Source: a virus. Taken from it: a DNA stretch of 30,236 bases. Below are positions 13,446-30,236 of this stretch, piece after piece (position 1 is the first letter of the stretch; each line of letters opens with the position of its first letter). The notes below the pieces were generated by a model. That model had not been told where the DNA came from. It did not search any database and saw only the letters and a list, made by a program, of their open reading frames with translations. The translations under genes were made by a program, and so were the position numbers. The DNA is taken from IMG/VR virus record IMGVR_UViG_3300021964_000325, positions 1 through 30,236 of that record; one strand, written 5' to 3'.

Positions 13446-13453
13446 TATTTATA
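13446..13453 (-). promoter_or_regulatory. T4-type late promoter core ahead of the fibre operon
   Basis: Exact TATAAATA on the minus strand, 61 bases ahead of the BppU-like gene's ATG. It overlaps the stop codon of the upstream glycosyltransferase gene, so it would start the structural transcript at the boundary between the modification genes and the fibre genes. Inferred from consensus and position. Confidence 0.65.
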
Positions 13454-14327
13454 TATTTTTGATTTTGTGTTTGAGTTCTTTTTTGTTTCTTGTGCAGAAA
13501 CAGAACTGTTGTGGACCTGCATATACAATATCTTTATTTATATCGTATTGTAGTGTTCTTATGTGGAAAGGTGTTTCTCTAATATCAACTTGATGTTTGA
13601 TATCTTGTTCTGGGTCCCAATAACCTTTGTTGTATGTGTCAAACTTCTGTAGACCATAAACGACTGTTGGAACATTCATCATACCTGCAAGATGCCAAGT
13701 AGCACCATCATAAGTATAATGTTGTTTACTATGTTGTAATAATTCTACCATTTCTGATACAGGCATGGTATAGTCAATGTACTTTACATTATAACGTGAT
13801 AGATTCTCTATGTCAAGTATTAAATCATACTGACCGTCTTGTGAACGATTCTTTCTCTTTTCTTCTGTGATTGATTCAAATCTATGAACTGTGATATAAT
13901 CACCATCGCCTAACCATTGTTGTTTCAAAGGCCATATTGCAGTCTTATCTTGTGTAGACATATTCATAAGTTGAGGATACAATGAATCGTAAAAATAAAA
14001 AGATACTATAATACCATTCTTTGGTGGTATCATATTCTCAACAATCCATGTTATTGTTTCATAGTATGTTTCTCTGTTCTGTGGTTTTCTCTTTGAGTCA
14101 ACAATGGGTAATAACATAACATACTTTTGTGGTTTGTCAAGTATTTTTTCTTGATGTAGTATGTGTGTATTTGCAAACGCAAGTGATAAGATACAACGAA
14201 TATCATTAAACGAATAGACTGCAAATCTATCCCAACGAACTAATGGGTGTATGCCTATCTCTGCGACTGACCCATCATTGTCGCACCCTATGTAAAATGT
14301 TTCAGCTAAGTTCATATCGTTTACCAT
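13449..14327 (-). CDS. GT-B-like glycosyltransferase paralogue 4, most diverged
   Basis: This 292-aa protein is related to the three proteins encoded at 14863-17574. Shared landmarks in order are an ETFYIxC opening, a KILDKPQ phrase, IPPKNGI, WPLKQQW, and a C-terminal HLAGMMNVPTVVYG loop. This loop corresponds to the sugar-nucleotide-binding HLA-G-PT-G signature of ADP-heptose-type (GT9-like) transferases. It differs from its paralogues in keeping the classical histidine (WHLAG, where others have YYLAG, YWLAG or YLLAG) and in having DGA in place of SGG or TGG. An internal ATG at 14315 gives a start that aligns exactly with the paralogues, so the true start may be 14315. Neither start has a strong ribosome site. 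It lies 26 bases after the oxygenase-like gene and ends at the fibre operon promoter. Donor and acceptor are unknown. Confidence 0.65.
   Translation of the reverse strand: MVNDMNLAETFYIGCDNDGSVAEIGIHPLVRWDRFAVYSFNDIRCILSLAFANTHILHQEKILDKPQKYVMLLPIVDSKRKPQNRETYYETITWIVENMIPPKNGIIVSFYFYDSLYPQLMNMSTQDKTAIWPLKQQWLGDGDYITVHRFESITEEKRKNRSQDGQYDLILDIENLSRYNVKYIDYTMPVSEMVELLQHSKQHYTYDGATWHLAGMMNVPTVVYGLQKFDTYNKGYWDPEQDIKHQVDIRETPFHIRTLQYDINKDIVYAGPQQFCFCTRNKKELKHKIKNI
13535..13542 (-). promoter_or_regulatory. Possible second late promoter core inside the glycosyltransferase gene
   Basis: A second exact TATAAATA on the minus strand lies 89 bases upstream of the first, within codons for DINK of the glycosyltransferase. 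It could act in tandem with the downstream site. It could also be chance, since an 8-base AT-only word is not rare in this AT-rich DNA. Confidence 0.3.
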
Positions 14328-14353
14328 TATTTTTACAATTAAGATAATATGTT

Positions 14354-14863
14354 TTAATCAATAACATGTTTTAATAAATTTTCATTCTCTATTTTATCTG
14401 GGTCAACTAAGAAATAATTGTATGTATATCGTACATCTGTTGATTCATAATAATGCCATGTTCTTTGTGTTAGTCCACAAAAATTCATAAGTCTATTTGG
14501 TTTCCAATCAACTGTTAGTTTTTCAGGATATGACGGTCGAGTATAATCAACAAGAGTAGTACCTATATTTTTCTCTGGACTTAAATATACTATTGCAGAC
14601 ATTATTTTAAATTCAGCTTCATCATGTTCTGGATGAACAAAGTTTGCTGGTGTAACAGCATAATGAATTAATTTTTTATAGGGACCATAATGCCTTCTTA
14701 CAGCATATTTTTTTACAAGTGTTTCAATTTGAGGTGTTGGGTCATAATCAAAAAACTTTCTATAGACATTATTGTCTTCAGGTTTAATATCCTTTATATC
14801 ATCTACTAATTTTTTAAACATATTGTCATCTAAATAATTATCAATAACTTCATGATTCCACAT
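14354..14863 (-). CDS. 2OG-Fe(II) oxygenase-like protein
   Basis: This 169-aa protein looks like the small phage type of 2-oxoglutarate, Fe(II)-dependent dioxygenase that hydroxylates a protein, sugar or small-molecule substrate. The metal-site region is HPEHDEAEFK (about 77-86), leading into the typical IVYLSP strand. A distal histidine is in TWHYYE (about H137), and an arginine that may bind 2-oxoglutarate is in RYTYNYF (about R145). The proximal pair reads HxE (H80/E82 or H77/E79) and not the commoner HxD, so activity is not assured. I chose the ATG at 14863, which shares a base with the upstream glycosyltransferase stop (TAATG), over a TTG at 14869. Its position inside the glycosyltransferase array suggests that it modifies the same product. 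Confidence 0.68.
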   Translation of the reverse strand: MWNHEVIDNYLDDNMFKKLVDDIKDIKPEDNNVYRKFFDYDPTPQIETLVKKYAVRRHYGPYKKLIHYAVTPANFVHPEHDEAEFKIMSAIVYLSPEKNIGTTLVDYTRPSYPEKLTVDWKPNRLMNFCGLTQRTWHYYESTDVRYTYNYFLVDPDKIENENLLKHVID

Positions 14864-15762
14864 TAACAATACTCCATTAATTTTTGTTTTAGTATATTAT
14901 ATTCTTCTATTTTTTCTACATTGCCTATATTAAATGTGTGGGATTGTGCTCTTTGATGTATTCTATTTCTTTCATCAAAATGTGTGATTCTTTCTTGATG
15001 TAAGAAATGTTCACCCCAACATGTTCTTAAAACTTTATTTGTAAAAGGTCTTCCTGGCGGTTTTAAGTTAGCATAATTATCTATCTGTGTTAAAGGACAA
15101 TCACCAAATGCGAGTGTTGGTACATTTAATCCACCTGCTAAATAGTAACAACCACCAGACCAAGATAAAAATAATTTACTTTGCCTTAATACATTAAATG
15201 TTTCTTCTATTGGTTTATCATATCCTACTAACTTATATTCTATTCCAAGATTTGTCAACTCATTTAAGATTGATTCATATGTTTTTTTGATTCTATCAAA
15301 GTTGTAATTTTTGTTTTTTTCTATAATTTTTATATCATTTATTGCCACATAATTTTTTGTATTATTATAATTCCATTGTTCTTTATATGGCCAAATAGTA
15401 AAGTAATCAGATGCAGTAACATATTTTATATTTTCTTTTGCTTCATAAACAGAAAACTTTATGCCATTTTTAGGCGGTATGAAATTATTTGCAATAAACC
15501 TTATTCTTTCTAAATTAGTATCACCTTGTTTATCATCAAATTTACCTATTTTTGGTATAACTAATGAAACACTATAAGGTTTGTCTAGTATACCATTTTC
15601 ATTCAATCTAAATGCCTTTAAGAAAACTTGTCCTAAAAAACAAATAAAAATGCCATAGGCATGACAATTGTTATTATCAAACCTTATAACATCTGAGTTA
15701 TGTAATTCTGGTATATTATTATCTTCTTCACAATTAATATAGAATGTTTCAATATACTTCAT
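14863..15762 (-). CDS. GT-B-like glycosyltransferase paralogue 3
   Basis: This 299-aa protein has the shared paralogue plan: ETFYINC (about 5-11), HAY near 34-36, GILDKPY (57-63), IPPKNGI (95-101), WPYKEQW (124-130), IEETFNVLRQSKL (185-197) and the loop SGGCYYLAGGLNVPTLAFG (202-220). The last is reminiscent of the C-terminal donor-binding signature of ADP-heptose-type transferases, with tyrosine where the usual histidine sits. It has no membrane segment, so it is a cytoplasmic enzyme. The gene is coupled to its neighbours, with ATGA overlap at the start and TAATG at the end. It is extremely AT-rich (one 60-base line, 15301-15360, has only 10 G or C by hand count). Substrate unknown. Confidence 0.68.
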   Translation of the reverse strand: MKYIETFYINCEEDNNIPELHNSDVIRFDNNNCHAYGIFICFLGQVFLKAFRLNENGILDKPYSVSLVIPKIGKFDDKQGDTNLERIRFIANNFIPPKNGIKFSVYEAKENIKYVTASDYFTIWPYKEQWNYNNTKNYVAINDIKIIEKNKNYNFDRIKKTYESILNELTNLGIEYKLVGYDKPIEETFNVLRQSKLFLSWSGGCYYLAGGLNVPTLAFGDCPLTQIDNYANLKPPGRPFTNKVLRTCWGEHFLHQERITHFDERNRIHQRAQSHTFNIGNVEKIEEYNILKQKLMEYC

Positions 15763-16709
15763 TTTAAAAGACTCTTTTTTAAAATATCATAATCTTCTTC
15801 GTTTATAACCTGACCAATATTTTTTACATGGTCAACTATTTTACTATGAAATTTCTTTTCTTCATTATATGTGTAAACATAACTAGGCACATTCCTCGTT
15901 CTTGAAATACCCCAAGCTGTTAATAAGTTTTTAGGTTCTACATGATAATCAGAATCAATAACTATTCTATTTTCTTTATAATCAACAGGCTTAGTGATTC
16001 TTATCTTATTTAAATAAAAATTTGTTTTTTCAATAAAGTTTTCACCAAATGCAAGAGTAGGTAGACCTAATCCACCAGCTAACCAATATGGTCCTCCAGT
16101 ATAAGAAATTAATAATTTACACATTAATAGAACTTCAAAAGTTTCCTTTATAGAAGTAGTATAATCTATTATTTTGTAATCTACAGATAAATTTTCTAAT
16201 TCATTTATTATACGACTAAAAATAGATTCTGAATTTCTATGAGCTGAATGTTCAGTTACATCACCTAATCCTTGCAATACAACAAAATCTTTACAATCAT
16301 TTTTATTCCATTGTTTTTTAAATGGCCATACAATGTCAGCATTTTGTCTAATAAAACCTTTTGTATTCTGTATATTAGATTCATATATTGAAATAACTAT
16401 ACCTTTATCTGGTGGTATAAAATTATTTGCAATAAATTTTATTCTTTCAACATTTGTTTCATAATCAGAATCTTTAAATTTTTTATTATCTAAAATGATA
16501 ATACCTGCAGAGTATGGTTGATTAAGTATACCATTTGATTGTAATGATTGTGCAGTATGAAATAATTCACCTAAACAAAATACAAATTGATAATAGGCAT
16601 GAGAATTACTAGACATTTTTGTGTCATCTAGTCTTATGACATGAGAATTATAAAGGTTAGGTATAATTTTATCACTACAATTTATATAGAGTGTTTCGCA
16701 GTATTTCAT
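15759..16709 (-). CDS. GT-B-like glycosyltransferase paralogue 2
   Basis: This 316-aa protein has the same landmark order as its neighbours: ETLYINC, SHAYYQF, GILNQPY, IPPDKGI, WPFKKQW, IKETFEVLLMCKL and TGGPYWLAGGLGLPTLAFG. It carries an extra segment near its C-terminus (around VIDSDYHVEPKNLL) that is not seen in the others. I chose the ATG at 16709 because it reproduces the common M-x-x-x-ETxYIxC start; a longer reading uses TTG at 16727. The gene overlaps the previous one by 35 bases and the next by four (ATGA), so the array is tightly coupled. It is a cytoplasmic GT-B-type enzyme by signature; donor and acceptor are unknown. Confidence 0.68.
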   Translation of the reverse strand: MKYCETLYINCSDKIIPNLYNSHVIRLDDTKMSSNSHAYYQFVFCLGELFHTAQSLQSNGILNQPYSAGIIILDNKKFKDSDYETNVERIKFIANNFIPPDKGIVISIYESNIQNTKGFIRQNADIVWPFKKQWNKNDCKDFVVLQGLGDVTEHSAHRNSESIFSRIINELENLSVDYKIIDYTTSIKETFEVLLMCKLLISYTGGPYWLAGGLGLPTLAFGENFIEKTNFYLNKIRITKPVDYKENRIVIDSDYHVEPKNLLTAWGISRTRNVPSYVYTYNEEKKFHSKIVDHVKNIGQVINEEDYDILKKSLLK

Positions 16710-17574
16710 AATCTCTTTCGGTTTCAACTTTACCTATATTTATTGTATTACTTTGGGGTCGGTTATGTAATCCATTTACTTCATCATAATGTAGTATTTT
16801 ACCAGCATGAATACACCAATCACCCCATACTGTATTAAGTATAGGAACTAAGTCTTTATTACCTGGCAGTTTTCTATTAATATAATCATCTGTTTTTGAT
16901 TGTAGATTATCACCAAAACCGATTGTCGGTAAGTTTAAACCACCTGCTAATAAGTAACAACCGCCTGGATAAGATAATAGTAGTTTAGATTTTAGAAGTG
17001 TATTGTATGTTTCTTCTATTTTCTGTTTATAATTTACAAACTTATATGATATTCCTAATGATTCTACTTCTTTCATCATTCGTTCATATATCTGTTCAAT
17101 ATTAGGATATCTAAAGTTATCTGCTATTTCATCTATTGATTGAATACAAATATAATCTTCACAGTTATCTTTATTCCATTGTTCTTTATATGGCCAAACA
17201 TAGAAAGCACCAAATGGTTTAATTACTTTTTTCTCTTGCCAATGTTCATAGAATGTTATAGCAATACCTTTTTCTGGTGGTACAAACTTCTCTAGAATGA
17301 ACTTCATTCGTGTAAGATTATCTTCAGGCTCAGAATCTTTGAATGATTCTATCTTAGGAATAACGACTGCGACTTTGTATGGTTTATCTAATATACCTTC
17401 TGATTGTAATTGCTGTGCTATAAAGAATGCTTCACCAAACATACTTACATAAACACAGTAAGCATGATAGTTACTTTGGTCCATTCTAATAACATATGAA
17501 CTATCTAATTGTGCTATTTCCCAACCATTGTTAGACATCTCACAGTTAATACATATTGTATCAATGTATCTCAT
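16675..17574 (-). CDS. GT-B-like glycosyltransferase paralogue 1
   Basis: This 299-aa protein is the first of the array, with DTICINC, YHAYCVY, GILDKPY, VPPEKGI, WPYKEQW, IEETYNTLLKSKL and PGGCYLLAGGLNLPTIGFG in the same order as its paralogues. The ATG at 17574 overlaps the stop of the cobalamin-type radical SAM gene (ATGA), and starting there gives the same N-terminus as the other copies; an upstream reading from 17625 would lie inside the other gene. It is visibly less AT-rich than paralogues 2 and 3. Coupling to a radical SAM enzyme suggests that the two act on one pathway. Function beyond glycosyl transfer is not determinable from sequence. Confidence 0.68.
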   Translation of the reverse strand: MRYIDTICINCEMSNNGWEIAQLDSSYVIRMDQSNYHAYCVYVSMFGEAFFIAQQLQSEGILDKPYKVAVVIPKIESFKDSEPEDNLTRMKFILEKFVPPEKGIAITFYEHWQEKKVIKPFGAFYVWPYKEQWNKDNCEDYICIQSIDEIADNFRYPNIEQIYERMMKEVESLGISYKFVNYKQKIEETYNTLLKSKLLLSYPGGCYLLAGGLNLPTIGFGDNLQSKTDDYINRKLPGNKDLVPILNTVWGDWCIHAGKILHYDEVNGLHNRPQSNTINIGKVETERDYEILRNTLYKL

Positions 17575-19184
17575 ACAGCAACTGTTTCCCAATGAAATGT
17601 TGATGATATATCGTGTTTGACACAATATTTTTTTAAATGATTAATTTTGTCTACACCACCTGATTGATATTCACCAAAGTAGAAGTTTTCTTTGTAATCA
17701 CTCATCAACTTTTCCCATAACTTCTCATCTGTTTCTGCCTGTCTTACAAGAGGCCACATTTCATCTGGATAATATGCATATAAAGAGAATGTTTTTGATA
17801 ATCCAATCATATCATTTCTTTGTAGATATGGTTTAGGCATAATAATTCCATTTATATCTTTTTCTGTTAAGAAACCATTACCGAAAATACCTTCATCTGG
17901 TTTTAGAAATCCAGCGTCTTCTGCAATTGTTCTTAAACCAGTACCTCTATAAGGCTGCCATATTGCAATTGTAAGACCATCATACCCTTCTGCATGTCTA
18001 ATAAGTCTTGCAGTATCCATGACCATATCACGAGTTTCAAATGGCATACCAATAATTATGTTCAAACTATATGGAATGTTACTTTCATTAATATATTTGA
18101 AATGTTTTATATAATCTTCATTTGTTGGTGTTCTTTTAAGATAGTTTCTTCTATAATCTTCATTACCAGATTCAACACCAAAAGTCATACGATATGCACC
18201 ACAATCTTTTAACGCCTCTAGAATATCTGGTTTACAATTTTCTATTCGTGTATTAAACCAAAATGGTATTTGATATTTACTCCACATTTTTGCAAATTCA
18301 AATATCTCTTTCTTTGGTCTCGCAAGAAAACTATCATCAATAAAGATAACTAAATCTGGTTCTAATCCTTTATCAATAAAATCTTGTAATTCTCTTTCAA
18401 CAACATCTGCAGGTTTTCTTCTCATAAAGTTTCCCAAGTCAAGAGTTTTTGCGATATCTCTAGTTGTCGGTGAGTTACAATATGTACATTGATATGGACA
18501 ACCACGATATGTTTCCATACTTACTGCACGATAGAAATGTTTACCACCCATAGGTCTTTGCCATCTATGGTTTTTATAACAACTAAAATCTGGTATTACT
18601 TCTGTTATATCAACTAACTTTGCAGGTTTGTTTCTATGTATTTTACCATTATCATCTTTCCACCAAACCCCATCAATAGTTGTAAATGCTTTCTTTTCTT
18701 TAAATGCACGAATAGCTTGACGAACAACTGTTTCACCTTCATACCGACAAATCATGTTAACTAAAGGTTCTTTTAATAATTGGTCTGGAACTGACATAGC
18801 ATAAACACCACCTGCGATATGAGGTATGTTTCTATCTTTAATACTATCTAACATCTTTAATCCTATTTCAACTACATCTTCTTGCATGTGAATAAGAATT
18901 AAATCTGGTTGATATTCGTCTATAGTTTGAATAAAGTCTGGTATAATTTGTTTTGGTGATTTAACATCAAAGTAATCTGCATCAGTATCACCTCTTTGGT
19001 TACCTCTGTTTGCACCATACTTTGCCATAAGAATATGTCTGTTTTCATATTCTTCAGAATATTGAGTTGTTTCAAATAAACGAAACTCTGCACCTTCTTC
19101 TTTACAAATACTATGAAATAAACCCACTGCAATTGCAGGTGTCATCATTAATGGAAGATTTGGATATGCCATTAATACTTTCAA
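17571..19184 (-). CDS. Radical SAM enzyme with cobalamin-binding-type N-terminal domain
   Basis: This 537-aa protein has the two-domain plan of B12-type radical SAM enzymes. The N-terminal 150 residues look like a Rossmann-type cobalamin-binding domain (KVLMAYPN, PDLILIHMQED, PHIAGGVYA, RYEGE), but no clear DxHxxG base-off motif is visible. The radical SAM core follows, with the cluster motif GCPYQCTYC (C229, C233, C236), FIDDS near 282-286, NTRIE near 311 and FGVESG (335-340). The C-terminal 130 residues are a typical family extension. Such enzymes methylate, rearrange or cyclise unreactive carbons, and class members act on sugars, lipids and natural products. The start is TTG at 19184, chosen because of the strong ribosome site and because the first beta strand would be lost from the next ATG (19172). 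Confidence 0.85.
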   Translation of the reverse strand: MKVLMAYPNLPLMMTPAIAVGLFHSICKEEGAEFRLFETTQYSEEYENRHILMAKYGANRGNQRGDTDADYFDVKSPKQIIPDFIQTIDEYQPDLILIHMQEDVVEIGLKMLDSIKDRNIPHIAGGVYAMSVPDQLLKEPLVNMICRYEGETVVRQAIRAFKEKKAFTTIDGVWWKDDNGKIHRNKPAKLVDITEVIPDFSCYKNHRWQRPMGGKHFYRAVSMETYRGCPYQCTYCNSPTTRDIAKTLDLGNFMRRKPADVVERELQDFIDKGLEPDLVIFIDDSFLARPKKEIFEFAKMWSKYQIPFWFNTRIENCKPDILEALKDCGAYRMTFGVESGNEDYRRNYLKRTPTNEDYIKHFKYINESNIPYSLNIIIGMPFETRDMVMDTARLIRHAEGYDGLTIAIWQPYRGTGLRTIAEDAGFLKPDEGIFGNGFLTEKDINGIIMPKPYLQRNDMIGLSKTFSLYAYYPDEMWPLVRQAETDEKLWEKLMSDYKENFYFGEYQSGGVDKINHLKKYCVKHDISSTFHWETVAV

Positions 19185-19188
19185 GATT

Positions 19189-19195: not shown

Positions 19196-19197
19196 GT

Positions 19198-20169
19198 CTA
19201 TATTCTAAACTCTCTCATATCAAATAGTCCACCAGTCAATACATTGTATGATGTTTCGAAGTTAGACCACACCATCGCCTCTGGTGTTTCATATAACATA
19301 TCACACCCTCTACAATATGGTACCTCATCAAATCTATGTTCTCTGTGCATCTTTCTTAAGTGTTCGTACTCTTTACCATTCCATATTTCTTCAATAGTAT
19401 TCTCTGATAAATGACCTAGTACTGCTTTACTATCTTGACCAAGAACCATACAACACGGAACGACTGCACCTTTTTTACCATCATTACCACCTGCACGAAT
19501 AATGATATCTGGTGAGAATGGTCTACCACAAGAACGTCTAACTGACTTTTGTTTACGCCAAGTAATCTCATCATAGACACCTGACCAATTGTGCATACGC
19601 CATATAGAGGCCTTGATACCAGGCACCTTATTAATAAAGTTCTTTTGATACTGTTCTATTTCATATTCTTGATTATCATTATCTAACACGAGATGATATG
19701 AACCAATCGTTGCATCTGAACCTGATTCTTTGATGTATGCAATCATATCGTTTGCATTTTTAATAATCATATCAAGATTATCTTCGGACATCCATTCTTT
19801 ATATTTCTCACGATTATAACCAGTAACAGAGAATCGTGCAAAGTGTAAACCAGCATCTACGATATCTTTCATAAACTGTCCTTGCATTAAAGAACCGTTT
19901 GTGATGAAAGACATTTTAAATCCTCTTTCGTGTCCTGACTCTATGAACTTTGGAAGTTTCTTATTCATACCAGGCTCACCTGAACCTTCAAGATATATTT
20001 CTTCTACTTCTGAATCTATCAGTTGGTCTAATATATTAAGATACATTTGATAGTTCATCATCTGACGAAATGGTCTTTCACGACCACCATCAAACGAATG
20101 AGGACACATCTGACACTTGTAATTACAAGCACCACAGACTTCTATAACCGCTTTTTTAATGGGTAACAT
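19198..20169 (-). CDS. Radical SAM/SPASM-type protein
   Basis: This 323-aa protein has a radical SAM cluster motif close to the N-terminus (CNYKCQMC: C15, C19, C22), a GSGEP motif (about 62-66) that is the usual SAM-contacting GGEP loop, and SFITNGS near 87. The C-terminal half has the SPASM-type arrangement of auxiliary-cluster cysteines: C214, a CC pair at 239-240, then LGHLSENTIEEIWNGKEY and CRGC at 286-289. SPASM enzymes modify peptides, proteins, sugars or nucleotides using extra iron-sulphur clusters. The gene has a strong ribosome site (TAAGGAG, 20174-20180) and is the first of the minus-strand modification operon, 13 bases ahead of the cobalamin-type enzyme. Substrate unknown. Confidence 0.85.
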   Translation of the reverse strand: MLPIKKAVIEVCGACNYKCQMCPHSFDGGRERPFRQMMNYQMYLNILDQLIDSEVEEIYLEGSGEPGMNKKLPKFIESGHERGFKMSFITNGSLMQGQFMKDIVDAGLHFARFSVTGYNREKYKEWMSEDNLDMIIKNANDMIAYIKESGSDATIGSYHLVLDNDNQEYEIEQYQKNFINKVPGIKASIWRMHNWSGVYDEITWRKQKSVRRSCGRPFSPDIIIRAGGNDGKKGAVVPCCMVLGQDSKAVLGHLSENTIEEIWNGKEYEHLRKMHREHRFDEVPYCRGCDMLYETPEAMVWSNFETSYNVLTGGLFDMREFRI

Positions 20170-20232
20170 AATACTCCTTATAATAATTATATATAATTAT
20201 AACATAAATTGTAACATATGTAAATATTTATT
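20170..20232. promoter_or_regulatory. Divergent promoter region between two radical SAM genes
   Basis: These 63 bases are almost all A and T and separate head-to-head operons. Near the plus-strand start, the palindrome TAAATATTTA creates AATAAATA on the minus strand (20225-20232) and TGTAAATA on the plus strand (20219-20226), each one mismatch from the late core TATAAATA. A TATAAT at 20179-20184 on the plus strand could be a sigma70-type minus-10 box. The minus gene has a strong ribosome site; the plus gene has none. Confidence 0.5.
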
Positions 20233-22438: not shown

Positions 22439-23171
22439 GATATTTTGTTTATATTACCAAGGCAAATACAGTACAGACTATGTTGCTAATCTCTACAACT
22501 CTCTTAAAAAACATTGTGATGTTGACTTTGAGTTTGTATGTTATAGCGATAGTGAAGTTCTCGCAGACAGAGTGATACCTCTCAAACAAAATGGTATCAT
22601 AAGAGAACATTGGTATAAACTACAATTTTTTGATAAGAACTTTACTGGTGATGGTGATATTATTGTTATGGACATTGACCAACTAATTGTAAGTAATATT
22701 ACAGAAATGGTCAACTGGCCCGTAGAAGAAAACGAACTTGTGTCATATACTAAATGGTGGAATAAAAGTCCTCATACAACAATCAATGGTGGTTGGTATA
22801 AATTCAAAGCAGGTAGTTTAGACTTTGTTTGGAAAAAATATATAGAGGACCCTGTTAGATGGCAATTACATTACTATAACAATCTTGTTGTACATTTTAA
22901 ATACTTTGGTGAACAAAACTTTGTAGAGGATACTTGCAGAGAAGAAGGTGTAAAGATTACCATGATGCCTGGTAAATGGGTTGGTAAATGGTCAAAAATA
23001 TTTGAACAGAATCTAACTTACAATGAATTGTATAGAGATAGTTTTAATGAAGAATTTCAGGTTATGGGTGATGAAATAAATTCTAATCTAAAAATTATAC
23101 ACTTTGCAAATCCAGATAACTATATAATGACTGAACGATACAATTGGATAAGAGAACATTGGCATGCTTAA
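22431..23171 (+). CDS. GT-A-like glycosyltransferase
   Basis: This 246-aa protein begins with a beta strand followed by YYQGKYSTDYVANLYNSL, then FVCYSD near 35-40, and has a probable metal and sugar-nucleotide motif MDIDQL (D81, D83), the DxD signature of GT-A enzymes such as GT8-like transferases. A later region has TTINGGWYKFKAG near 117-128, matching the acceptor-side loop of such enzymes, and LKIIHFANPDN near the end. It is related in its first 90 residues to the proteins at 23164 and 29440. It is probably cytoplasmic, with no membrane segment. The ATG lies inside the end of the previous radical SAM gene and the stop overlaps the next glycosyltransferase start, each by eight bases. Confidence 0.75.
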   Translation: MIKIFCLYYQGKYSTDYVANLYNSLKKHCDVDFEFVCYSDSEVLADRVIPLKQNGIIREHWYKLQFFDKNFTGDGDIIVMDIDQLIVSNITEMVNWPVEENELVSYTKWWNKSPHTTINGGWYKFKAGSLDFVWKKYIEDPVRWQLHYYNNLVVHFKYFGEQNFVEDTCREEGVKITMMPGKWVGKWSKIFEQNLTYNELYRDSFNEEFQVMGDEINSNLKIIHFANPDNYIMTERYNWIREHWHA

Positions 23172-23772
23172 TATAATATGTGTTTGTACTGGTGATAAGT
23201 ATCACCCAATCTATATTGACAATTTAAAATATATGCTTGACAAGTTCTCAGGTTTAGAGTATGATAAGTTCAATGTAGTAAGTGAAGATAGACACGAGGG
23301 TGTATTCAATAAACTACAAATCTTCGAACGATTCACAGAGAACTACAATATATATTTTGACCTAGATGTAATTATTCGTGGTGATTGTAATAAGTTTATA
23401 TCACAGGCACTATCAGTCATATACGCATGGTGGCGTCCTGCATACCACACACCAATCAACAGTTCTATCATATCTTGGTATGGCAATAAGTCATACATAT
23501 ACAAAGACTTTATGGAGCAACCAGATTACTACATGGTCAAGTATCATAAAGGCATAGACCAATATTTACACGAGAACCACGAATACATTACCTTTCCCTA
23601 TGGTGGTGTTTGTTCCTATCAAACAATACTTGATGAAAGAGAATTTAGTGTATACTTATTCAATCAACGATATAAATCTATGCAGATTCCTGGCTGGTAT
23701 TCGAAGTATCTTCTACCACAATTTCAATCCCATTTTCAACATTGTCAAGATGAATATCAATTGCAGCTCTAA
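23164..23772 (+). CDS. GT-A-like glycosyltransferase, short form
   Basis: This 202-aa protein has the same opening as the protein at 29440 (NIICVCTGDKYHPIYIDNL against NVICVKQGDKYSSDYVNRL) and a DxD motif in FDLDVI (D66, D68). It then has VIYAWWRP and PINSSIISWY, which match VLYAQWKE and LYNSSIMKWEW in the later copy, and KYHKGIDQYL, which matches KYQGVDRYL. By alignment its natural C-terminus is near IPGWYSKYLL; the last 18 or so residues run over the 3' end of the opposing gene at 23678. The gene is coupled to the preceding glycosyltransferase by an ATGCTTAA overlap. The small size implies a minimal catalytic domain; donor unknown. Confidence 0.72.
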   Translation: MLNIICVCTGDKYHPIYIDNLKYMLDKFSGLEYDKFNVVSEDRHEGVFNKLQIFERFTENYNIYFDLDVIIRGDCNKFISQALSVIYAWWRPAYHTPINSSIISWYGNKSYIYKDFMEQPDYYMVKYHKGIDQYLHENHEYITFPYGGVCSYQTILDEREFSVYLFNQRYKSMQIPGWYSKYLLPQFQSHFQHCQDEYQLQL

Positions 23773-24265
23773 CAACTTCTAAAGGTGTTGCAGCTCTTCT
23801 TAATGCCTTCTTTAAATCAGTATTAGTGTTTTGACGAATATGTGGCATTTCAAACAACTCTAATTTTATTGAGAACAAATTGTTAATTTCTGATTCTTTT
23901 GATTCATCAAATGGTTCAAATAATGAAGTTAGAAAAGTTGTGTATGAACGCACATCTGCAAGTCCAGAAGAGAATATTAAACCTTCTCTCTTTGCAATTT
24001 CCATTACTTCTAATTCATAGTTATATCTTGCTTCTCTTATCCAACGATAAGTATTTGCATGAATATTATCTAAATCATCACAGTTTTCTAGTACCCAATT
24101 ATATTGAGGTGAATCAACTGGAAATGCTGATGCAGTGTATTGACGTTCTGTATTTAGTTCATCTTCATTTTTAATATAAAGTAATTCTATAATACTTTTT
24201 TCATCATTAGTAAATCTTGCACTGCCTTTTACATATTGACAGTCCTTTGGAAATGCTCTACTCAT
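23678..24265 (-). CDS. Unrecognised 195-aa protein
   Basis: I do not recognise this family. It is a soluble protein with a charged N-terminus (SRAFPKDCQYVKGSARFTNDEKS), a YNWVLENCDDLDNIHANTY region, a helical EARYNYELEVMEIAKREG segment and a helical DLKKALRRAATPLEVVRAAIDIHL segment; the C-terminus is acidic. There is no signal peptide, membrane segment or obvious catalytic motif. It looks like a real gene: a strong ribosome site (TAAGGAG, 24271-24277) precedes the ATG and an exact late-promoter core lies upstream. It is a lone minus-strand gene between plus-strand glycosyltransferases and overlaps the end of one of them by 95 bases, tail to tail. Late expression and solubility would suit a minor virion or assembly protein, which is speculation. 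Confidence 0.7.
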   Translation of the reverse strand: MSRAFPKDCQYVKGSARFTNDEKSIIELLYIKNEDELNTERQYTASAFPVDSPQYNWVLENCDDLDNIHANTYRWIREARYNYELEVMEIAKREGLIFSSGLADVRSYTTFLTSLFEPFDESKESEINNLFSIKLELFEMPHIRQNTNTDLKKALRRAATPLEVVRAAIDIHLDNVENGIEIVVEDTSNTSQESA

Positions 24266-24300
24266 AATTACTCCTTATGTTTTTCATTTCACTTTAAATT

Positions 24301-24308
24301 TATTTATA
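24301..24308 (-). promoter_or_regulatory. T4-type late promoter core ahead of the 195-aa gene
   Basis: Exact TATAAATA on the minus strand, 35 bases upstream of the ATG at 24265, with a strong ribosome site between. The surrounding DNA is nearly all A and T and is shared with the divergent plus-strand glycosyltransferase gene. Confidence 0.68.
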
Positions 24309-24327
24309 TATACAATTAGAGTTTATT

Positions 24328-25200
24328 ATGAGAATTGTTTTTAGTCTATACATAGATATTCCTTCCGAAAATTTAGATTATCAACCACCATACAACGGTG
24401 ATGATATGTCTAAAACACAAAGAACAAAACTACAGTTTATTGAACACTACGATAGACTAAAAGAATCACATCAACAATACGCATATGATATTTCAACAGA
24501 GTATGAACTCTTTGAATATGATGATTCATATAAAGAATACCATAAAATGTTCAAAGAAAAATATCCTATGATTAATGATTATTGTATAGTTAACTTTTAT
24601 AAGATATATTTGTTGTATGAATTATCTAAACACTATGACGAAATATTATATCTTGATTTTGATGTAGTTCCAGTTACTGATGATGATTTCTTTGATGTGT
24701 GGAATTTAGATAGAGGTGTTGCAATATTAAACAATAATGATGATTACACATTAAAAATGCAACAAAGTCCTATGTTCAATAAAAGAAAGGCGTCTAACCG
24801 AAGCCCTCTTGCAAAGTACTGGAACGCAAAGGCTATGTTATTTGAAGAAGGACACCGTACGAACATAGATGTTTTCAACACAGGTATTATTGGTATTAAC
24901 AAAGAACACATAGATAAGTTAGATTACTTTGGTAACTTTGATAAGACAATAGAGTTAATGACACGAGTGAAAAACGATACAAGTTTTTATCCACAAGATA
25001 CACTAGATATGTTTGGTTATGATAATGAAACGATATGGTCTTATAAAACAAAAGTAAATAAAGTAAAAACACAATGGCTAGATAAGGAATGGCATTTTTT
25101 CTTTGACCCAATATCAACATGGATTCCAAAGAAAAGTAAGTTTGTTCATTGTATTAATAAGAGATTTGATGATGTCTGGGAATTCAAGAGTAATCTTTAG
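24328..25200 (+). CDS. GT-A-like glycosyltransferase, long form A
   Basis: This 290-aa protein opens with a RIVFSLYIDI strand and, after a helical region, has YDEILYLDFDVVP, whose DFD (D110, D112) is the expected DxD site of a GT-A transferase. Further landmarks are IDVFNTGIIGINKEH near 180-194, a typical acceptor-loop phrase, and a closing KKSKFVHCINKRFD. All these features recur in the next protein (VIFSVYQEV, YDEVLYLDLDVIP, NIVNTGVIGGNKDA, VIFVHVINKKFE), so the two are tandem paralogues. There are no membrane segments. The start follows a weak TTAGAG sequence. The gene diverges from the unrecognised 195-aa gene. Substrate unknown. Confidence 0.75.
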   Translation: MRIVFSLYIDIPSENLDYQPPYNGDDMSKTQRTKLQFIEHYDRLKESHQQYAYDISTEYELFEYDDSYKEYHKMFKEKYPMINDYCIVNFYKIYLLYELSKHYDEILYLDFDVVPVTDDDFFDVWNLDRGVAILNNNDDYTLKMQQSPMFNKRKASNRSPLAKYWNAKAMLFEEGHRTNIDVFNTGIIGINKEHIDKLDYFGNFDKTIELMTRVKNDTSFYPQDTLDMFGYDNETIWSYKTKVNKVKTQWLDKEWHFFFDPISTWIPKKSKFVHCINKRFDDVWEFKSNL

Positions 25201-25996
25201 TGTATATCAAGAAGTAAAAGACCTTAGTGTTACTTCTTATAAAAAACAACAGTTACATTTATATAAAGACAAACTTGCTACAAAACAAAAACAATATGCA
25301 AAGTTTTGTGGTGCAGATTATTTTGTTTATGAAACTGATGAATTTCATATTGATGATTATACATCAATACAATTTATGAAAATAAAACAGTTTGAAGAAC
25401 TTGCAAAAAAGTATGATGAAGTTTTATATCTTGACCTTGATGTTATACCTTTTATGTTCAAAAACTTTTTTGAAGAACATGACTTATCAAAAATATGTAT
25501 TCTACAACAAGATGGAAAACAATGGGGATTAGATAGATGTTTTAAAAAATGGCCATTGTATGGACATTTAGACTCTTTAGATAATCAGAACTGTTGGGTA
25601 AAGGCTTGTTCTAAAAACTCCATGTTACTTTTAGAAAACTATAAAGTTTTAAATGACAACATAGTAAACACAGGCGTTATTGGTGGTAATAAAGATGCAA
25701 TAGGTGAACTGATGTTTGGTGAAAATTTAAATCATATGATTGAATTATTGTATACTGCACAGAAAGATAACGTATATCCAAAAGAAATACATCCATTTAT
25801 GATACCTAATAACGAAGTATTCTTTTCTTATCTTATTGAAAAAAATAAATTAACAATCAATAATATTGAAGAAAAATGGAATCATATAGTTGATGATACA
25901 ACAACATTAGGTAAAATAAATTGGAAAGAAGTTATATTCGTACATGTTATTAATAAAAAGTTTGAACAAACGTTTCCTGAATATAATCTATTTTAA
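25172..25996 (+). CDS. GT-A-like glycosyltransferase, long form B
   Basis: This 274-aa protein is a tandem paralogue of the preceding gene, with RVIFSVYQEV at the start, DLD (D88, D90) inside YDEVLYLDLDVIP, NTGVIGGNKDA in the middle and FVHVINKKFE near the end. The ATG at 25172 (or the adjacent one at 25169) gives a start matching the paralogue; a longer reading from 25103 lies wholly inside the upstream gene in another frame and is unlikely. It overlaps the upstream gene by 29 bases, and its stop codon directly abuts the stop of the convergent radical SAM gene with no bases between. It is probably cytoplasmic; donor and acceptor unknown. Confidence 0.75.
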   Translation: MSGNSRVIFSVYQEVKDLSVTSYKKQQLHLYKDKLATKQKQYAKFCGADYFVYETDEFHIDDYTSIQFMKIKQFEELAKKYDEVLYLDLDVIPFMFKNFFEEHDLSKICILQQDGKQWGLDRCFKKWPLYGHLDSLDNQNCWVKACSKNSMLLLENYKVLNDNIVNTGVIGGNKDAIGELMFGENLNHMIELLYTAQKDNVYPKEIHPFMIPNNEVFFSYLIEKNKLTINNIEEKWNHIVDDTTTLGKINWKEVIFVHVINKKFEQTFPEYNLF

Positions 25997-26977
25997 TTAC
26001 CAATATTCTTTCTGTGGTTTCTGTAAACCCTGTCTATCAATAACATGCACATAAGAACCTGTACATCTTTTATGACATACTGATGTATTACAACCGTATT
26101 GCGATTGAATCCAATCGTTCATACCTTTACTATCAAGTATCTCTCGTATCGTATGTTTGTACAATGAATTCAAGTCTGGGTCGTCTTTGACCATAGGCCA
26201 ATCTGGACTTCTGTTGACTGCAGAACCAGTCCAACAACAAGGCCACAATCTACCCCATGCGTCAACATATATCTCTTTGCGTATTTCAGATACACATCTT
26301 AATTGTTCTTTCTTCTGAAACTTTTCTATTCTGAATCTATCTGATGTAGGTGGATATAGTTTACCGCCTGGGTATTCAAAAGGTTTCTTACTGTCTTGAA
26401 AACGTGCAGATACTTTGATAACAAATTCTTTACAACCTAACTCATCACTTAACTTCTGTGCATCTTCTATTTGATGTTCGTTATGAAAGAACGGTATAAA
26501 GAACCAGTACGACACACCACCAGTCTTGTTAAACGCCTTTACATTCTTTATAAGTTTATCCCACTTGACACCAATACGATAGATATGATTTGTATCTTCC
26601 ATACCATCTATATGAAACTGAACGTGCGACTGTGGTGATTTTGCGTATATCTCACCAAGTTCAGTCCAAAACTTTTCACCTCGTATACCACCATTCGTAC
26701 TCAATATGAATTCGATAGATGGATTTATGTCGTATAAATATTTGTGGATTTCTAAAAGGTCTTTTGCAATTGCAGGGTCCCCATAGTTTCCACAGAATTT
26801 GAATTTCTTGAGACCTTTTACAAAGTCTTCAGGAAAGAACTTGACGAAGTTTTCGTATGATACTTCGCCTTGATTATTTAATATTTTGGGATTATTAGTA
26901 CGAGAACACATTGGACAAAATGCATTACATCTCGCCGTTGGTTCAAAGTGTACCGCTTGTATTCCGTGAATTAACAT
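25997..26977 (-). CDS. Radical SAM/SPASM-type protein, CGxxGDP variety, copy B
   Basis: This 326-aa protein is related to the enzyme at 21383 but lies on the opposite strand. It has the cluster motif CNAFCPMC (C17, C21, C24), CGNYGDP (62-68) in the GGEP position, LSTNGG (92-97) and FHIDGMED (121-128). SPASM-type cysteines are C228, a CC pair in LWPCCW (247-248), and C296, C301 and C305 near the end. I chose the ATG at 26977 because it places the HFEPTARC strand at the usual distance; longer frames run through the divergent gene. No Shine-Dalgarno site precedes it, and only 13 bases separate it from the divergent methyltransferase start. Possible roles are peptide or sugar modification; the sequence does not say which. 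Confidence 0.83.
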   Translation of the reverse strand: MLIHGIQAVHFEPTARCNAFCPMCSRTNNPKILNNQGEVSYENFVKFFPEDFVKGLKKFKFCGNYGDPAIAKDLLEIHKYLYDINPSIEFILSTNGGIRGEKFWTELGEIYAKSPQSHVQFHIDGMEDTNHIYRIGVKWDKLIKNVKAFNKTGGVSYWFFIPFFHNEHQIEDAQKLSDELGCKEFVIKVSARFQDSKKPFEYPGGKLYPPTSDRFRIEKFQKKEQLRCVSEIRKEIYVDAWGRLWPCCWTGSAVNRSPDWPMVKDDPDLNSLYKHTIREILDSKGMNDWIQSQYGCNTSVCHKRCTGSYVHVIDRQGLQKPQKEYW

Positions 26978-26990
26978 AAAGTTATTTAGT

Positions 26991-28106
26991 ATGATTGTTA
27001 TAGACAAAACTGATTTCAAACTTCTTTGTGATACCAAACCGTATGATGAATTCAATGTGTTACAGACACTTGCATATGAAGAAGGTTGGCACAAAGCAAT
27101 AATTGACGACAAAGATACTCACTTCTTTACAGTAGTTATTGATAATACACCTGCATTTTCATTTACTGCAGTAAAGATGAATGGTAATATATTGCGAAGT
27201 ATGACAAAGATATATTCCAATCCAGAATATCGTAGTAGTATCAATCGTAAAATACTCAACACTTGTTTTGAATTCTTTGATTCAGAATACTTTGGTGATA
27301 TCAAGTTAAAGATAATCTCAAGACACCCATCACAAACTGCGTGGAAGAGTTGGTTTCGTAGACAAGGTTGGAGTATAGATGATGATATGTTATACTTGAT
27401 AAGTAAAGACAAGAAGAAACAAACTGCATGGAAACAACTATATTATAAAGGGGATATTGAATTGTTGAACACAGAGAAGATGAGTAAAGAAAAATACGAG
27501 GGAGTTTTTGGTAAGTATACATTTACATTTGACTTTGCAACTCCTGCCATTGAAAACGCAAAAGTTATTTTAGATAACCCAAGAAACGTGTTAGAGATTG
27601 GAACGTGGGAAGGTAAGTTCTCTATATGGCTTGCAGAAACATACAAATGTAAAGTAACAACAATTGACCCATTTGATGGTAGTGTTTATGGTATATCACA
27701 GACACTCTATGATGAAGCATACAAAGATTTAATTAACAACTTGAATACTTGTAAAGAAGATATTACTTACATTCGTAAAACATCTTATGACGCACTTCAC
27801 GATTTGAAAGGTCAACAGTTTGATTTTATTTACATAGATGGTTCACATAAGTCTGCAGACGTACTTGAAGACCTTGTACTATCTTATAGACTATTAACTA
27901 AAGGTGGTATTATGTTATTAGATGATAGTGTGTACTGGAAAGCAAGAGAAGTAACTGGGTGGAAACACGAAAAGAATAAATTAGTACATGATGTTGTTGA
28001 ATCACCACGAATTGCAGTTGACTATTTTATCCATATACATTGGAAAGATATTGAAGTGTTGAAACTGGCGAATAATTACCAGACTGCATTTAGGAAATTG
28101 TCTTAG
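26991..28106 (+). CDS. GNAT-like region fused to class I SAM methyltransferase
   Basis: This 371-aa protein appears to be a fusion. The C-terminal 190 residues are a class I methyltransferase: motif I VLEIGTWEG (200-208), TIDPF (224-228), FDFIYIDGSH (277-286) and GGIMLLDD (305-312). This resembles the Methyltransf_24-type small-molecule or sugar O-methyltransferases. The N-terminal 135 residues resemble an acyltransferase-like (GNAT) fold by pattern (SMTKIYSNPEYR, KILNTCFEFF, KIISRHPSQTAWKSWFRRQGW), but no clear acetyl-CoA loop is visible, so it may be a binding domain. The gene has no evident ribosome site. It is convergent with the TM coiled-coil gene, with stop codons overlapping. It probably acts on the glycan or other product of the island. 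Confidence 0.78.
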   Translation: MIVIDKTDFKLLCDTKPYDEFNVLQTLAYEEGWHKAIIDDKDTHFFTVVIDNTPAFSFTAVKMNGNILRSMTKIYSNPEYRSSINRKILNTCFEFFDSEYFGDIKLKIISRHPSQTAWKSWFRRQGWSIDDDMLYLISKDKKKQTAWKQLYYKGDIELLNTEKMSKEKYEGVFGKYTFTFDFATPAIENAKVILDNPRNVLEIGTWEGKFSIWLAETYKCKVTTIDPFDGSVYGISQTLYDEAYKDLINNLNTCKEDITYIRKTSYDALHDLKGQQFDFIYIDGSHKSADVLEDLVLSYRLLTKGGIMLLDDSVYWKAREVTGWKHEKNKLVHDVVESPRIAVDYFIHIHWKDIEVLKLANNYQTAFRKLS

Positions 28107-28582
28107 TTAATTCTGGCTCTATCCAACCGTCTGTATATTTCTTCAATGTCCTTAAGAGCATTTTGAATCATCTTATCATTATCTATCTGAGTGTTGTTGA
28201 CTTCACGTTCAATTTTGTCGAGTTTACTATTGATATCTGAAATCTGATTTGATGTATCACGCATTTGTTCCAGTGTATCTCTAAGTGCGTTAATTTTATC
28301 TTTAAGTGTATCTAATTGTCCAATTGTAACTGTGTCATTTTTCTGACGTTCTAGCGAACTAACTATTCCATTCACTTCAGCACTAATTGACTGTAAATCT
28401 AACAGTTGTTTGTTAATATCTTTTTGTGATTCAATAATAGAATCTATTCTTGTGTGAGCATTTACCGAAGTTTCAATAGACTGTTCAACTGATGTTTGTA
28501 AATCACTTGCTATTCTTAAACCTCCATACACTACACCAATTAAAGGTAAAATTGCTGTGATATATCCTATCCATTTCCACAT
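28103..28582 (-). CDS. Single-TM coiled-coil protein
   Basis: This 159-aa protein has one N-terminal hydrophobic helix (WIGYITAILPLIGVVYGGLRIA, about residues 4-25), followed by about 130 residues of heptad-like helix rich in I, L, D, Q and K. There is no catalytic motif. The topology suits a membrane-anchored coiled coil facing the periplasm or cytoplasm; an inner-membrane spanin or a membrane scaffold are possibilities, but no spanin partner is visible and I do not assign either. The ATG shares one base with the stop of the QueC-like gene (TAATG), so the two are co-translated from the same late-type leader. It ends in a stop-to-stop overlap with the convergent methyltransferase gene. Confidence 0.7.
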   Translation of the reverse strand: MWKWIGYITAILPLIGVVYGGLRIASDLQTSVEQSIETSVNAHTRIDSIIESQKDINKQLLDLQSISAEVNGIVSSLERQKNDTVTIGQLDTLKDKINALRDTLEQMRDTSNQISDINSKLDKIEREVNNTQIDNDKMIQNALKDIEEIYRRLDRARIN

Positions 28583-29403
28583 TATATTGTCTTAGTTCTT
28601 TCTATACAAGTATCACATTCACCACAAGTACTAGGGTATGCAACATCACACATATTGTGTGCTTTCATAACAATCTCTCTGTCTTTTTCTGTAAATATTT
28701 TTACATCATTAATAAGTGTATTGAGTAGTTTATACACATCAGACTTAGTCAAGTCTTGAAGTGGTAAATACATCTTATCGTTTTCTATTAGTTCATCAAA
28801 AGAAATGATTGTATATGAGTTTTGTTTTTCTAACCACGCATAGTTACTATATGCGTCAATGGCATCTCTTTCAATAATACCTCTGTATTTCTTTTTACTT
28901 GCTTTGATAGTCTTTGCAATCTTATCAGATGATGTGATATTCTTTTCTTTAAGATGATTCAAAAGAGTTCTACCTTCAAATATTCTTTTATTGATACCAA
29001 AAGTAATCGAGTGTTTATCTGTCAAATCAACACCACGTTCCCACAATAGATTTAAAAGAGAAGCAACATTCTGGCGTCTTTTGTCAACAATAAAGTTATC
29101 ACCATTTTGATATGTAAAATCTTCCATTGTTAAAAACACGATACGATTCTTTAGACCAACTTCTTCACACATATCATTGAATATACTATACTGATTCTGT
29201 AATCTAGTATCATCATAATTCTTTTCACCTCGTCTGTATATTTGATACAATGCATTGATAGGAAAGAATACTGCGACTACATTGTCTAGTGTTTTATATT
29301 TCTTTTTCATTCTCAAAGCAATCATAGTAGAATCTACACCACCAGAAAAGAACAACAATGTTTTCTTTTTTTCAGTTACTGTTGGTAAAACCATATCACT
29401 CAT
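28582..29403 (-). CDS. queC-like: QueC-like PP-loop ATPase
   Basis: This 273-aa protein has an N-terminal PP-loop SGGVDS (20-25) that binds ATP for adenylation and a C-terminal zinc-type cysteine cluster C252, C260, C263, C266 ending in CGECDTCIER. This is very like the CGEC-PAC ending of QueC, which makes 7-cyano-7-deazaguanine (preQ0). It is longer than usual QueC (about 220-230 aa), and the substrate-side region reads SITFGINKRIFEGRT, which I cannot match to the usual QueC motif. It may therefore be a divergent deazaguanine enzyme or another PP-loop ligase. No FolE, QueD or QueE gene is seen here. The start is supported by AAAGGAG (29411-29417) and an upstream late-promoter core. Confidence 0.75.
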   Translation of the reverse strand: MSDMVLPTVTEKKKTLLFFSGGVDSTMIALRMKKKYKTLDNVVAVFFPINALYQIYRRGEKNYDDTRLQNQYSIFNDMCEEVGLKNRIVFLTMEDFTYQNGDNFIVDKRRQNVASLLNLLWERGVDLTDKHSITFGINKRIFEGRTLLNHLKEKNITSSDKIAKTIKASKKKYRGIIERDAIDAYSNYAWLEKQNSYTIISFDELIENDKMYLPLQDLTKSDVYKLLNTLINDVKIFTEKDREIVMKAHNMCDVAYPSTCGECDTCIERTKTI

Positions 29404-29422
29404 ATAAAAACTCCTTTAATTC

Positions 29423-29430
29423 TATTTATA
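29423..29430 (-). promoter_or_regulatory. T4-type late promoter core ahead of the QueC-like gene
   Basis: Exact TATAAATA on the minus strand, 19 bases upstream of the ATG at 29403, with AAAGGAG between them. It sits in a 36-base gap shared with the divergent plus-strand glycosyltransferase gene. Confidence 0.68.
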
Positions 29431-29439
29431 TATATTATT

Positions 29440-30105
29440 ATGATAAATGTGATTTGTGTGAAACAAGGCGACAAATATTCTTCTGATTATGTCAACAGAC
29501 TATACAATATGGTCGAGAAAAATATGCCAGAAGAATTCAACTTCTATTGTTATACAGATAATGCAACTGGTCTAAACAAACCAATTGTACCTGTTGAGAT
29601 AGAATCAGACTTGACACAATGGTGGCCTAAAATTGATTGTCTAAACATATTTAGAGAAGGCAGTAATATATTATTTGACCTTGATATAGTTATTCTTAAT
29701 CCTCTACATAGACTTCTTTCTGTACAAACAAGAACAGTATCAGTCCTATACGCACAATGGAAAGAAGGATATCTAGCACCACGTGCCAGAGAAAAGTTTC
29801 CTACATTATATAACTCATCTATTATGAAATGGGAGTGGCATCAAGGTAAAGAGATATATGATTATTTTCAAAAACACAAACAGATGATATTATTTAAGTA
29901 TCAAGGAGTTGATAGATATCTATTTAATGAACCTGTACAAGTTGACTTATTACCTACATCAATCGCATATTCATATTGGAAAGGTGTACGATATCTTAAA
30001 GATACAACACCAGAGAAACTACGAAATGATTATGAAGTCTGTATATTAAATCATGGTACAAAACAAGAAGAACTAGAAACATGGATAAAAGATTACTGGA
30101 AATAG
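29440..30105 (+). CDS. GT-A-like glycosyltransferase, short form
   Basis: This 221-aa protein opens with INVICVKQGDKYSSDYVNRL, has FYCYTD near 35-40, and carries DLD (D80, D82) in ILFDLDIVI, the probable metal-binding DxD of a GT-A transferase. VLYAQWKE, YNSSIMKWEW and KYQGVDRYL follow, matching the protein at 23164 closely in order and spacing. The final 45 residues (YLKDTTPEKLRNDY, VCILNHGTKQEELE) show the natural end of this family. No Shine-Dalgarno site precedes the ATG; the leader is AT-only. It diverges from the QueC-like gene and overlaps the start of the next plus-strand frame by 25 bases. Donor and acceptor unknown. Confidence 0.74.
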   Translation: MINVICVKQGDKYSSDYVNRLYNMVEKNMPEEFNFYCYTDNATGLNKPIVPVEIESDLTQWWPKIDCLNIFREGSNILFDLDIVILNPLHRLLSVQTRTVSVLYAQWKEGYLAPRAREKFPTLYNSSIMKWEWHQGKEIYDYFQKHKQMILFKYQGVDRYLFNEPVQVDLLPTSIAYSYWKGVRYLKDTTPEKLRNDYEVCILNHGTKQEELETWIKDYWK

Positions 30106-30236
30106 CACAAAAGTGTAAAGACTTTTTAGAAAAAAGAAACAGTCTTTATCTTAAGGCAGACATACTGATACCAGAAGAAGTCAGAGATGAAGCATTGAAG
30201 ATATACGATATGGGTTTGTTTACTTCGCATAGAGTA
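30081..30236 (+). CDS. Start of an unrecognised gene, cut by window edge
   Basis: An ATG at 30081, inside the last codons of the preceding glycosyltransferase, opens a frame of 52 codons that continues off the window. It begins MDKRLLEIAQKCKDFLEKRN, then has KADILIPEEVRDEALKIYDM and ends GLFTSHRV at the edge. The part seen is helical and charged, with no recognisable motif. The 25-base overlap fits the coupled style of the plus-strand blocks, and codon use is natural, so I think it is real. Function unknown. Confidence 0.6.
   Translation, partial: MDKRLLEIAQKCKDFLEKRNSLYLKADILIPEEVRDEALKIYDMGLFTSHRV

Follow-up and report, generated by a model that had tools for sequence, protein, structure and literature searches.

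Gene content of the island

The window analyzed here, the whole 30,236-base stretch of IMG/VR virus record IMGVR_UViG_3300021964_000325, carries beside its fibre genes an island (13449-30236) dense in radical S-adenosylmethionine (rSAM) enzyme and glycosyltransferase (GT) genes, with an oxygenase and a methyltransferase. The original prediction that the enzymes form a glycan-chemistry cassette linked with the fibre genes was upheld, and the probable role of the cassette is to remodel a sugar of the cell surface or of the fibres. The order rSAM2-OXY-GTB-lft115 (an rSAM gene, the oxygenase gene, a gene for a GT-B-fold GT and a tail fibre assembly-like gene) is a recurrent core, newly recognised here. 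The record is linear and equals the complete window, and is therefore a phage fragment. The right side of the island runs to the contig end at 30236, and the VrlC side lies outside the contig.

All five predicted rSAM genes matched Pfam PF04055 above the cut-off where they had been placed, and the CxxxCxxC motif was present in 5/5, in rSAM4 only with its neighbouring stretch included. rSAM2 (19198..20169, minus strand) is a radical SAM/SPASM protein (PF04055, 3.7e-12, plus SPASM), and its closest PDB sequence was BtrN, followed by BlsE. BtrN acts on a carbohydrate-like cyclitol, and BlsE acts on a sugar nucleotide. The B12-binding radical SAM enzyme (B12-rSAM; 17571..19184, minus strand) possessed a B12-binding domain in addition to PF04055 (7.9e-21), and its closest solved structures by sequence were AprD4 and OxsB. 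In several phages it lies next to rSAM2 or overlaps it, and the pair was kept in the compared loci L001-L004. On the plus strand, rSAM3 (20233..21405) is a twitch-domain radical SAM protein (PF04055, 3.6e-7; NCBIfam N_Twi_rSAM NF033640, 242 bits against a cut-off of 170), and rSAM4 (21383..22438) is a radical SAM/SPASM protein (PF04055, 2.2e-6, plus SPASM). rSAM5 (25997..26977, minus strand), also radical SAM/SPASM, matched PF04055 at 1.3e-9. rSAM4 is one gene in the window and two short overlapping genes, a radical SAM core and then a SPASM-like part, in several phages (L014:9086-10029, L015:7833-8796, L139:211-1372, and L266:16426-17392 in the cultured phage Mosig). The split is possibly a natural two-subunit form, or possibly due to frameshifts.

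The nine predicted GT genes are supported to unequal degrees. Three GT-A proteins on the plus strand matched the glycosyltransferase family PHROG 1962, namely GTA1 (22431..23171; 3e-17), GTA2 (23164..23772; 5e-4), and GTA5 (29440..30105; 1.7e-9). The others were assigned by paralogy, a GT8-like family and a structure model, and the GT8 and GT9 Pfam cut-offs were not reached. GTA3 (24328..25200, plus strand) and its paralogue GTA4 (25181..25996, plus strand) are GT8-like GT-A proteins with a DxD motif, and their GT8 support came from the family, in which 4/17 homologues matched GT8 at E < 0.01 (best 2.6e-5). The two window proteins themselves were below the PF01501 (GT8) cut-off (GTA4, 15.9 bits versus 24.3), and a PDB sequence profile search gave nothing significant for them. 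When the profiles of the two GT-A families were compared, no clear relation emerged either way.

GTB1 (13449..14327), GTB2 (14863..15762), GTB3 (15759..16706), and GTB4 (16675..17571), all on the minus strand, are paralogues of 26-45% identity in an otherwise unclassified family. GTB1, which is GT9/TibC-like, keeps its place next to OXY and lft115. Sequence searches of Pfam, PHROG and PDB gave no meaningful match for GTB1-4, and the PF01075 (GT9) cut-off was not reached. For the AlphaFold model of GTB4 (pLDDT 89.3), the best folds were TibC (first), POMGNT2, and WaaC, all of them GT-B and none below E 0.001. Furthermore, GTB profile matches in SAR11 fell on proteins named GT9 by Pfam. The assignment of GTB1-4 as predicted GT-B enzymes is supported, with single fold matches that are weak. 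TibC is a heptosyltransferase acting on an autotransporter adhesin.

The predicted oxygenase and methyltransferase were both recovered. OXY (14354..14869, minus strand) was modelled with a P4H/PHD2-type fold, and its best match among the 2-oxoglutarate-Fe(II) (2OG-Fe(II)) oxygenases, which share a double-stranded beta-helix, had an E of 5.9e-8. In its family, H82, H139 and R147 were invariant with D/E at 84 (H-x-D/E...H...R). No Pfam match was obtained for OXY, and the PDB sequence profile search gave nothing significant; the modelled fold and the conserved residues confirmed it as a predicted 2OG-Fe(II) oxygenase. The methyltransferase (MT; 26991..28106, plus strand) matched Methyltransf_24 at 1.3e-17. 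It has an extra N-terminal domain of ~170 residues, acetyltransferase-like by eye and without a Pfam match. The remaining island genes encode the coiled-coil-rich h159 (28103..28582, minus strand), with only weak, coiled-coil-type family matches, and a QueC-like PP-loop protein (28582..29403, minus strand; Pfam QueC, 2.5e-7; PHROG 1550, 2.6e-11). In the cassette slot of a second phage, a further protein carries an SGGLDS PP-loop motif (L168:6142-6873).

A complete glycan pathway had been proposed for the island, and this was not borne out. Among the island proteins of this contig, which is a fragment, no family match was found for nucleoside diphosphate (NDP)-sugar synthesis, an initiating transferase, a flippase or a polymerase, and none had a clear membrane segment; such genes may lie in other parts of the phage genome. 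In addition, glycine amidinotransferase had no Pfam match in the island.

The predicted adjacency to fibre genes was confirmed by PHROG matches to a T4-like fibre and neck context. The neck genes TerS (gp16), gp15, gp14, and gp13 (470..3267, minus strand; PHROG matches down to 7.6e-84) appear to be the conserved edge of the host recognition cluster. They are followed by the fibre/virion structural genes fib633, fib272, vsp985, and fib1332 (3304..13027, minus strand), of which fib633, fib272 and fib1332 were named from position and sequence character. The nearest relative of vsp985 (PHROG 5838, virion structural protein, 8.5e-249), the largest conserved structural protein, was in Synechococcus phage S-CAM1 (47%), and that of gp14 was in Kyanoviridae phage C48C1 (46%). 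The contig phage is probably a pelagimyophage-like member of the Kyanoviridae. The conserved left border of the cassette is lft115 (13037..13384, minus strand; PHROG 3304, 5.8e-19), which is L-shaped tail fibre assembly-like. The far border of the slot is h195 (23678..24265, minus strand), a conserved fibre-region gene whose position was kept in lft115-sampled loci and in Mosig.

Recurrence in phages and SAR11 chromosomes

Phage contigs were sampled via lft115, irrespective of rSAM genes, and 64 loci were left after removal of near-identical contigs. Only this sample is unbiased with respect to the cassette genes, because some sister loci were found via cassette genes. Its counts are restricted to homologues of gene families present in the window, and the statistics treat loci as independent. 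The upstream side of lft115 (535 kb) carried 42 rSAM and 66 GT genes, and the downstream side (475 kb) carried 0. Fifty loci extended 6 kb or more upstream, and among them a GT was present in 25, an rSAM gene in 16 and both in 11; the association was marginal (p = 0.047, before removal of near-identical contigs). In whole records, rSAM genes occurred in 19/50, with four or more in seven. The rSAM2 gene was found in 201 viral loci, and records chosen mostly by it had up to 16 rSAM genes each, with as many as 10 within 21 kb. These counts indicate that dense rSAM/GT islands are common in related phages, which corrects the assumption of single rSAM and GT genes in marine T4-like phages; T4-like phages with dense islands had also been published (PMC2853527, PMC7029224). 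The co-occurrence expected of rSAM and GT genes was found, since they were linked across phages and not scattered as unlinked single genes. The smallest slots had no GT, or one GT directly before lft115.

The order rSAM2-OXY-GTB-lft115 also occurred in more distant phages, including the lft115-found loci L168, L197, and L180. No earlier description of an rSAM2-OXY-GTB core was found in a literature search of incomplete coverage. Three sister islands (L012, L013, L015) were near-syntenic with the window. In these, lft115, GTB genes, OXY, sometimes B12-rSAM, and rSAM2 lie on one strand, and beyond rSAM2 come rSAM3-rSAM4-GTA1-GTA2, h195, and GTA3-GTA4. The most conserved cassette gene was rSAM2 (92-97% identity to the sisters), compared with 86-92% for GTA1/GTA2 and 37-52% for GTB2/GTB3. 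B12-rSAM was missing in 2/3 sisters. Moreover, rSAM5, MT, h159, the QueC-like gene and GTA5 had no close counterpart in 3/3 sisters and are therefore a separate variable part, so that the region is not the single island first described. In partial data from the four sister islands, the cassette did not simply track fibre type.

A second viral group (L024, L049, L054, L019, L029, L036; some records >140 kb) possessed 9-10 rSAM genes in ~20 kb, with up to 16 per record. In these arrays rSAM2 was central, most members were of twitch/SPASM types, and the order was conserved. Their neighbours include a nucleotide-sugar epimerase, and no function was described in the papers found.

SAR11 bacteria are among the most abundant bacteria of the ocean. 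A scan of 84,980 cellular genomes with rSAM2 gave 14 loci. Twelve were Pelagibacterales, and the remaining ones, L228 and L238, binned as a Sphingobacteriales and a Euryarchaeota metagenome-assembled genome, had phage-like gene content and are probably viral sequence that was wrongly binned into reference genomes. The SAR11 rSAM2 homologues (42-48%) were located in surface-polysaccharide loci, where CDP-glucose 4,6-dehydratase was above the cut-off in 4/4 tested and glucose-1-phosphate cytidylyltransferase was near the cut-off. An OXY homologue lay beside rSAM2 or at most two genes from it in 3/10 SAR11 genomes (L226, L227, L237). In SAR11-family genomes, OXY occurred in 14/197, rSAM2 in 4/197, and B12-rSAM relatives in ~20/197 (32-35% identical in the loci read). 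These shared genes suggest that the host of the contig phage may be SAR11-like.

Expression signals and proposed function

A sigma70-type promoter (TTTACA-17-TATAAT, extended -10; 20186..20224, minus strand) lies upstream of the left operon, which runs from rSAM2 to GTB1. It matches 11/12 consensus positions and was kept in four phages (the window, L012, L013, L015). AATAAATA, which precedes it, is likewise conserved and fits NATAAATA, the late motif of cyanophages (PMC2984593). Matches to TATAAATA numbered 7 in the window against 6.7 expected, which is chance, yet 4/7 sit 27-69 bp before gene starts. They mark gp13, lft115 (13446-13453), h195 (24301-24308), and the QueC-like gene (29423-29430), and not the rSAM/GT operons, so these matches were rejected as evidence for a late role. 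At lft115 the late promoter was exact as TATAAATA in 78/82 and as NATAAATA in 80/82 non-redundant copies (6.8 expected). This near-invariant element provides a landmark for annotating the slot in metagenomes. Before rSAM, GT and OXY genes, NATAAATA occurred at about chance frequency, although operon-internal genes are not expected to carry one. For the cassette genes, the view that late promoters favour a virion role was not supported. Since early-type and late-type elements are both present, a late role is possible.

The reading that we tentatively prefer, at somewhat below an even chance, is that the cassette remodels a surface glycan of host type to which the fibres are matched. In this reading the host recognition cluster would include the island as an exchangeable cassette. 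rSAM2, B12-rSAM, the other rSAM enzymes, OXY and MT may alter host-made activated sugars or the host glycan, and at the cytoplasmic face the soluble GT-A and GT-B enzymes may attach modified sugars to the surface glycan. A surface changed in this way might hide the receptor of the phage itself or of a competitor, and the outcome would be superinfection exclusion, or progeny that do not re-bind debris. Linkage to the fibre genes would ensure that the modification continues to suit the receptor of the fibre. The reading is preferred because rSAM2 homologues in SAR11 sit in surface-polysaccharide loci with CDP-sugar genes, OXY lies near rSAM2 there, though it is rare, and B12-rSAM relatives occur in SAR11-family genomes. 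It is also preferred because GTB resembles GT9, S-CAM1 has heptose/LPS-type genes at the corresponding site, and the Mosig slot has homologues of GTA1, GTA2 and GTA3 with h195, lft115 and an arabinose-type aminotransferase. Moreover, the left operon has its conserved sigma70-type promoter with no late signature at the cassette genes, and the published cluster model proposes host O-chain modification (PMC7029224). A narrower version, in which the phage supplies its own rSAM sugar chemistry, common to SAR11 O-antigen-type loci, and with it rewrites the fibre-recognised glycan, rSAM2-OXY makes an undescribed sugar and the unclassified GT-B enzymes transfer it, is rather unlikely.

Several points weigh against host-surface remodelling. 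The host is only putatively SAR11-like, AATAAATA, which is late-like, is conserved next to the sigma70-type promoter, and GTs are strictly on the fibre-gene slot side. The single GT directly before lft115 in some phages fits a fibre target at least equally, and host precursors must be assumed because NDP-sugar enzymes and membrane parts are lacking in the cassette. Glycosylation of the phage's own fibres is the main rival and a possible, though doubtful, explanation: the GTs would build a glycan on fibre proteins, and the rSAM enzymes and OXY would make or trim unusual residues, with an effect on host range or virion shielding. The 66 GT and 42 rSAM genes upstream of lft115, with 0 downstream in the 64 non-redundant loci, are in agreement with this, as are the single-GT cassettes. 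GTB has its best fold match, a weak one, in the adhesin heptosyltransferase TibC, and the prolyl-hydroxylase fold of OXY belongs to a class that often acts on proteins. Virion glycosylation is established in mycobacteriophages (cited in PMC12619734), which also speaks for this reading. However, the late-promoter signature seen at lft115 is missing from the cassette genes, GTA1/GTA2 were kept (86-92%) whereas some fibre parts were not, and relatives of rSAM2 and OXY are located in bacterial polysaccharide loci. Ser/Thr content, tried as a sign of glycosylation, was rejected, since it did not clearly differ between adjacent fibres with and without a GT (22.6 versus 21.2%, p = 0.10).

A heterogeneous pile of exchanged genes without a common product is improbable. 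Composition does differ strongly among relatives, and B12-rSAM comes and goes among the sisters, but the core order and slot recur, rSAM2 and GTA1/2 are strongly conserved among the sisters, and the rSAM2-OXY pairing is also found in SAR11. Since SPASM and twitch rSAM enzymes often modify peptides, maturation of a ribosomally synthesized and post-translationally modified peptide (RiPP), or production of a secreted small molecule, was considered and is very improbable. The island is 98.4% coding with a largest gap of 64 nt. A precursor gene has no space between the annotated genes and could exist only as an overlap with them. Furthermore, no transporter or leader-recognition gene was found among the island proteins, and the closest solved relatives of rSAM2 act on a cyclitol and a sugar nucleotide. 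Some phages have DNA modified by GTs and 7-deazaguanine enzymes, and with a QueC-like gene present, decoration of the phage genome by this protein and the GTs can be envisaged. It is hardly credible here, because the QueC-like gene lies outside the conserved core and is missing in the sisters, no other queuosine/archaeosine gene was above the cut-off in the island, and the GT homologues track the fibre slot.

Comparison with known systems

In kind and place, the island matches the published host recognition cluster, a variable island between VrlC and gp14 in pelagi- and cyanomyophages (PMC7029224), and its gene density is not unusual in kind. That report describes a gp14-side variable region with fibres and many GTs (GT8 the commonest) and mentions rSAM cassettes. 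The window likewise has fibre genes and several GTs that vary among relatives. Its gp13/gp14 side corresponds to the cluster, the contig stops before VrlC, and the full layout is seen in Mosig. The window differs from the published cluster in its defined core, rSAM2-(B12-rSAM)-GTB-OXY, and in GT-B genes that belong to no classified family. What is new is this recurrent core, the SAR11 chromosomes with rSAM2 near OXY and CDP-sugar genes, and Mosig with three of the GT families.

The T4-related Campylobacter phages CP220 and CPt10 carry an interchangeable five-rSAM module published in 2010 (PMC2853527), and the window also has five clustered rSAM genes. Two annotated NDP-sugar transferase-fold (GT-A-fold) genes adjoin the CP220 cluster, a tail fibre gene lies ~12 kb off, and 11 rSAM genes were counted in CP220 in total. 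The module differs in its amidinotransferase and its host, and no rSAM2-OXY-GTB core was recognised in it. S-CAM1 has heptose/LPS-type surface-sugar genes at the corresponding site beside fibre and neck genes, but these are sugar-nucleotide and heptose enzymes, with no rSAM gene in S-CAM1. Similarly, cyanophage P-SSM2 has surface-sugar genes (24 LPS genes; PMC2984593), which differ from the cassette in being sugar-nucleotide and heptose enzymes.

Pelagibacter phage Mosig EXVC030M (MT647606), cultured on HTCC1062, possesses a slot between lft115 and h195/VrlC with homologues of GTA1 (45%), GTA2 (37%), and GTA3 (47%), as well as rSAM genes, oxygenases and methyltransferases in a similar two-direction layout. 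In contrast to the window, rSAM2, B12-rSAM, the OXY family and GTB were unmatched in its slot, which has aminotransferase (annotated as UDP-4-amino-4-deoxy-L-arabinose type), carbamoyltransferase and nitroreductase genes. Since Mosig and HTCC1062 are a cultured pair and the phage has three of the GT families found in the window, the choice between host surface and fibre is directly testable. Among cellular systems, SAR11 surface-polysaccharide loci, such as that of Pelagibacterales SAG-MED47, resemble the cassette in having rSAM2 with an OXY homologue nearby, although they include NDP-sugar synthesis, which the phage cassette lacks. Through the rSAM2-OXY pair, the cassette that recurs in phages is connected with the surface-glycan loci of SAR11, which bears on how SAR11 phages deal with the host surface.

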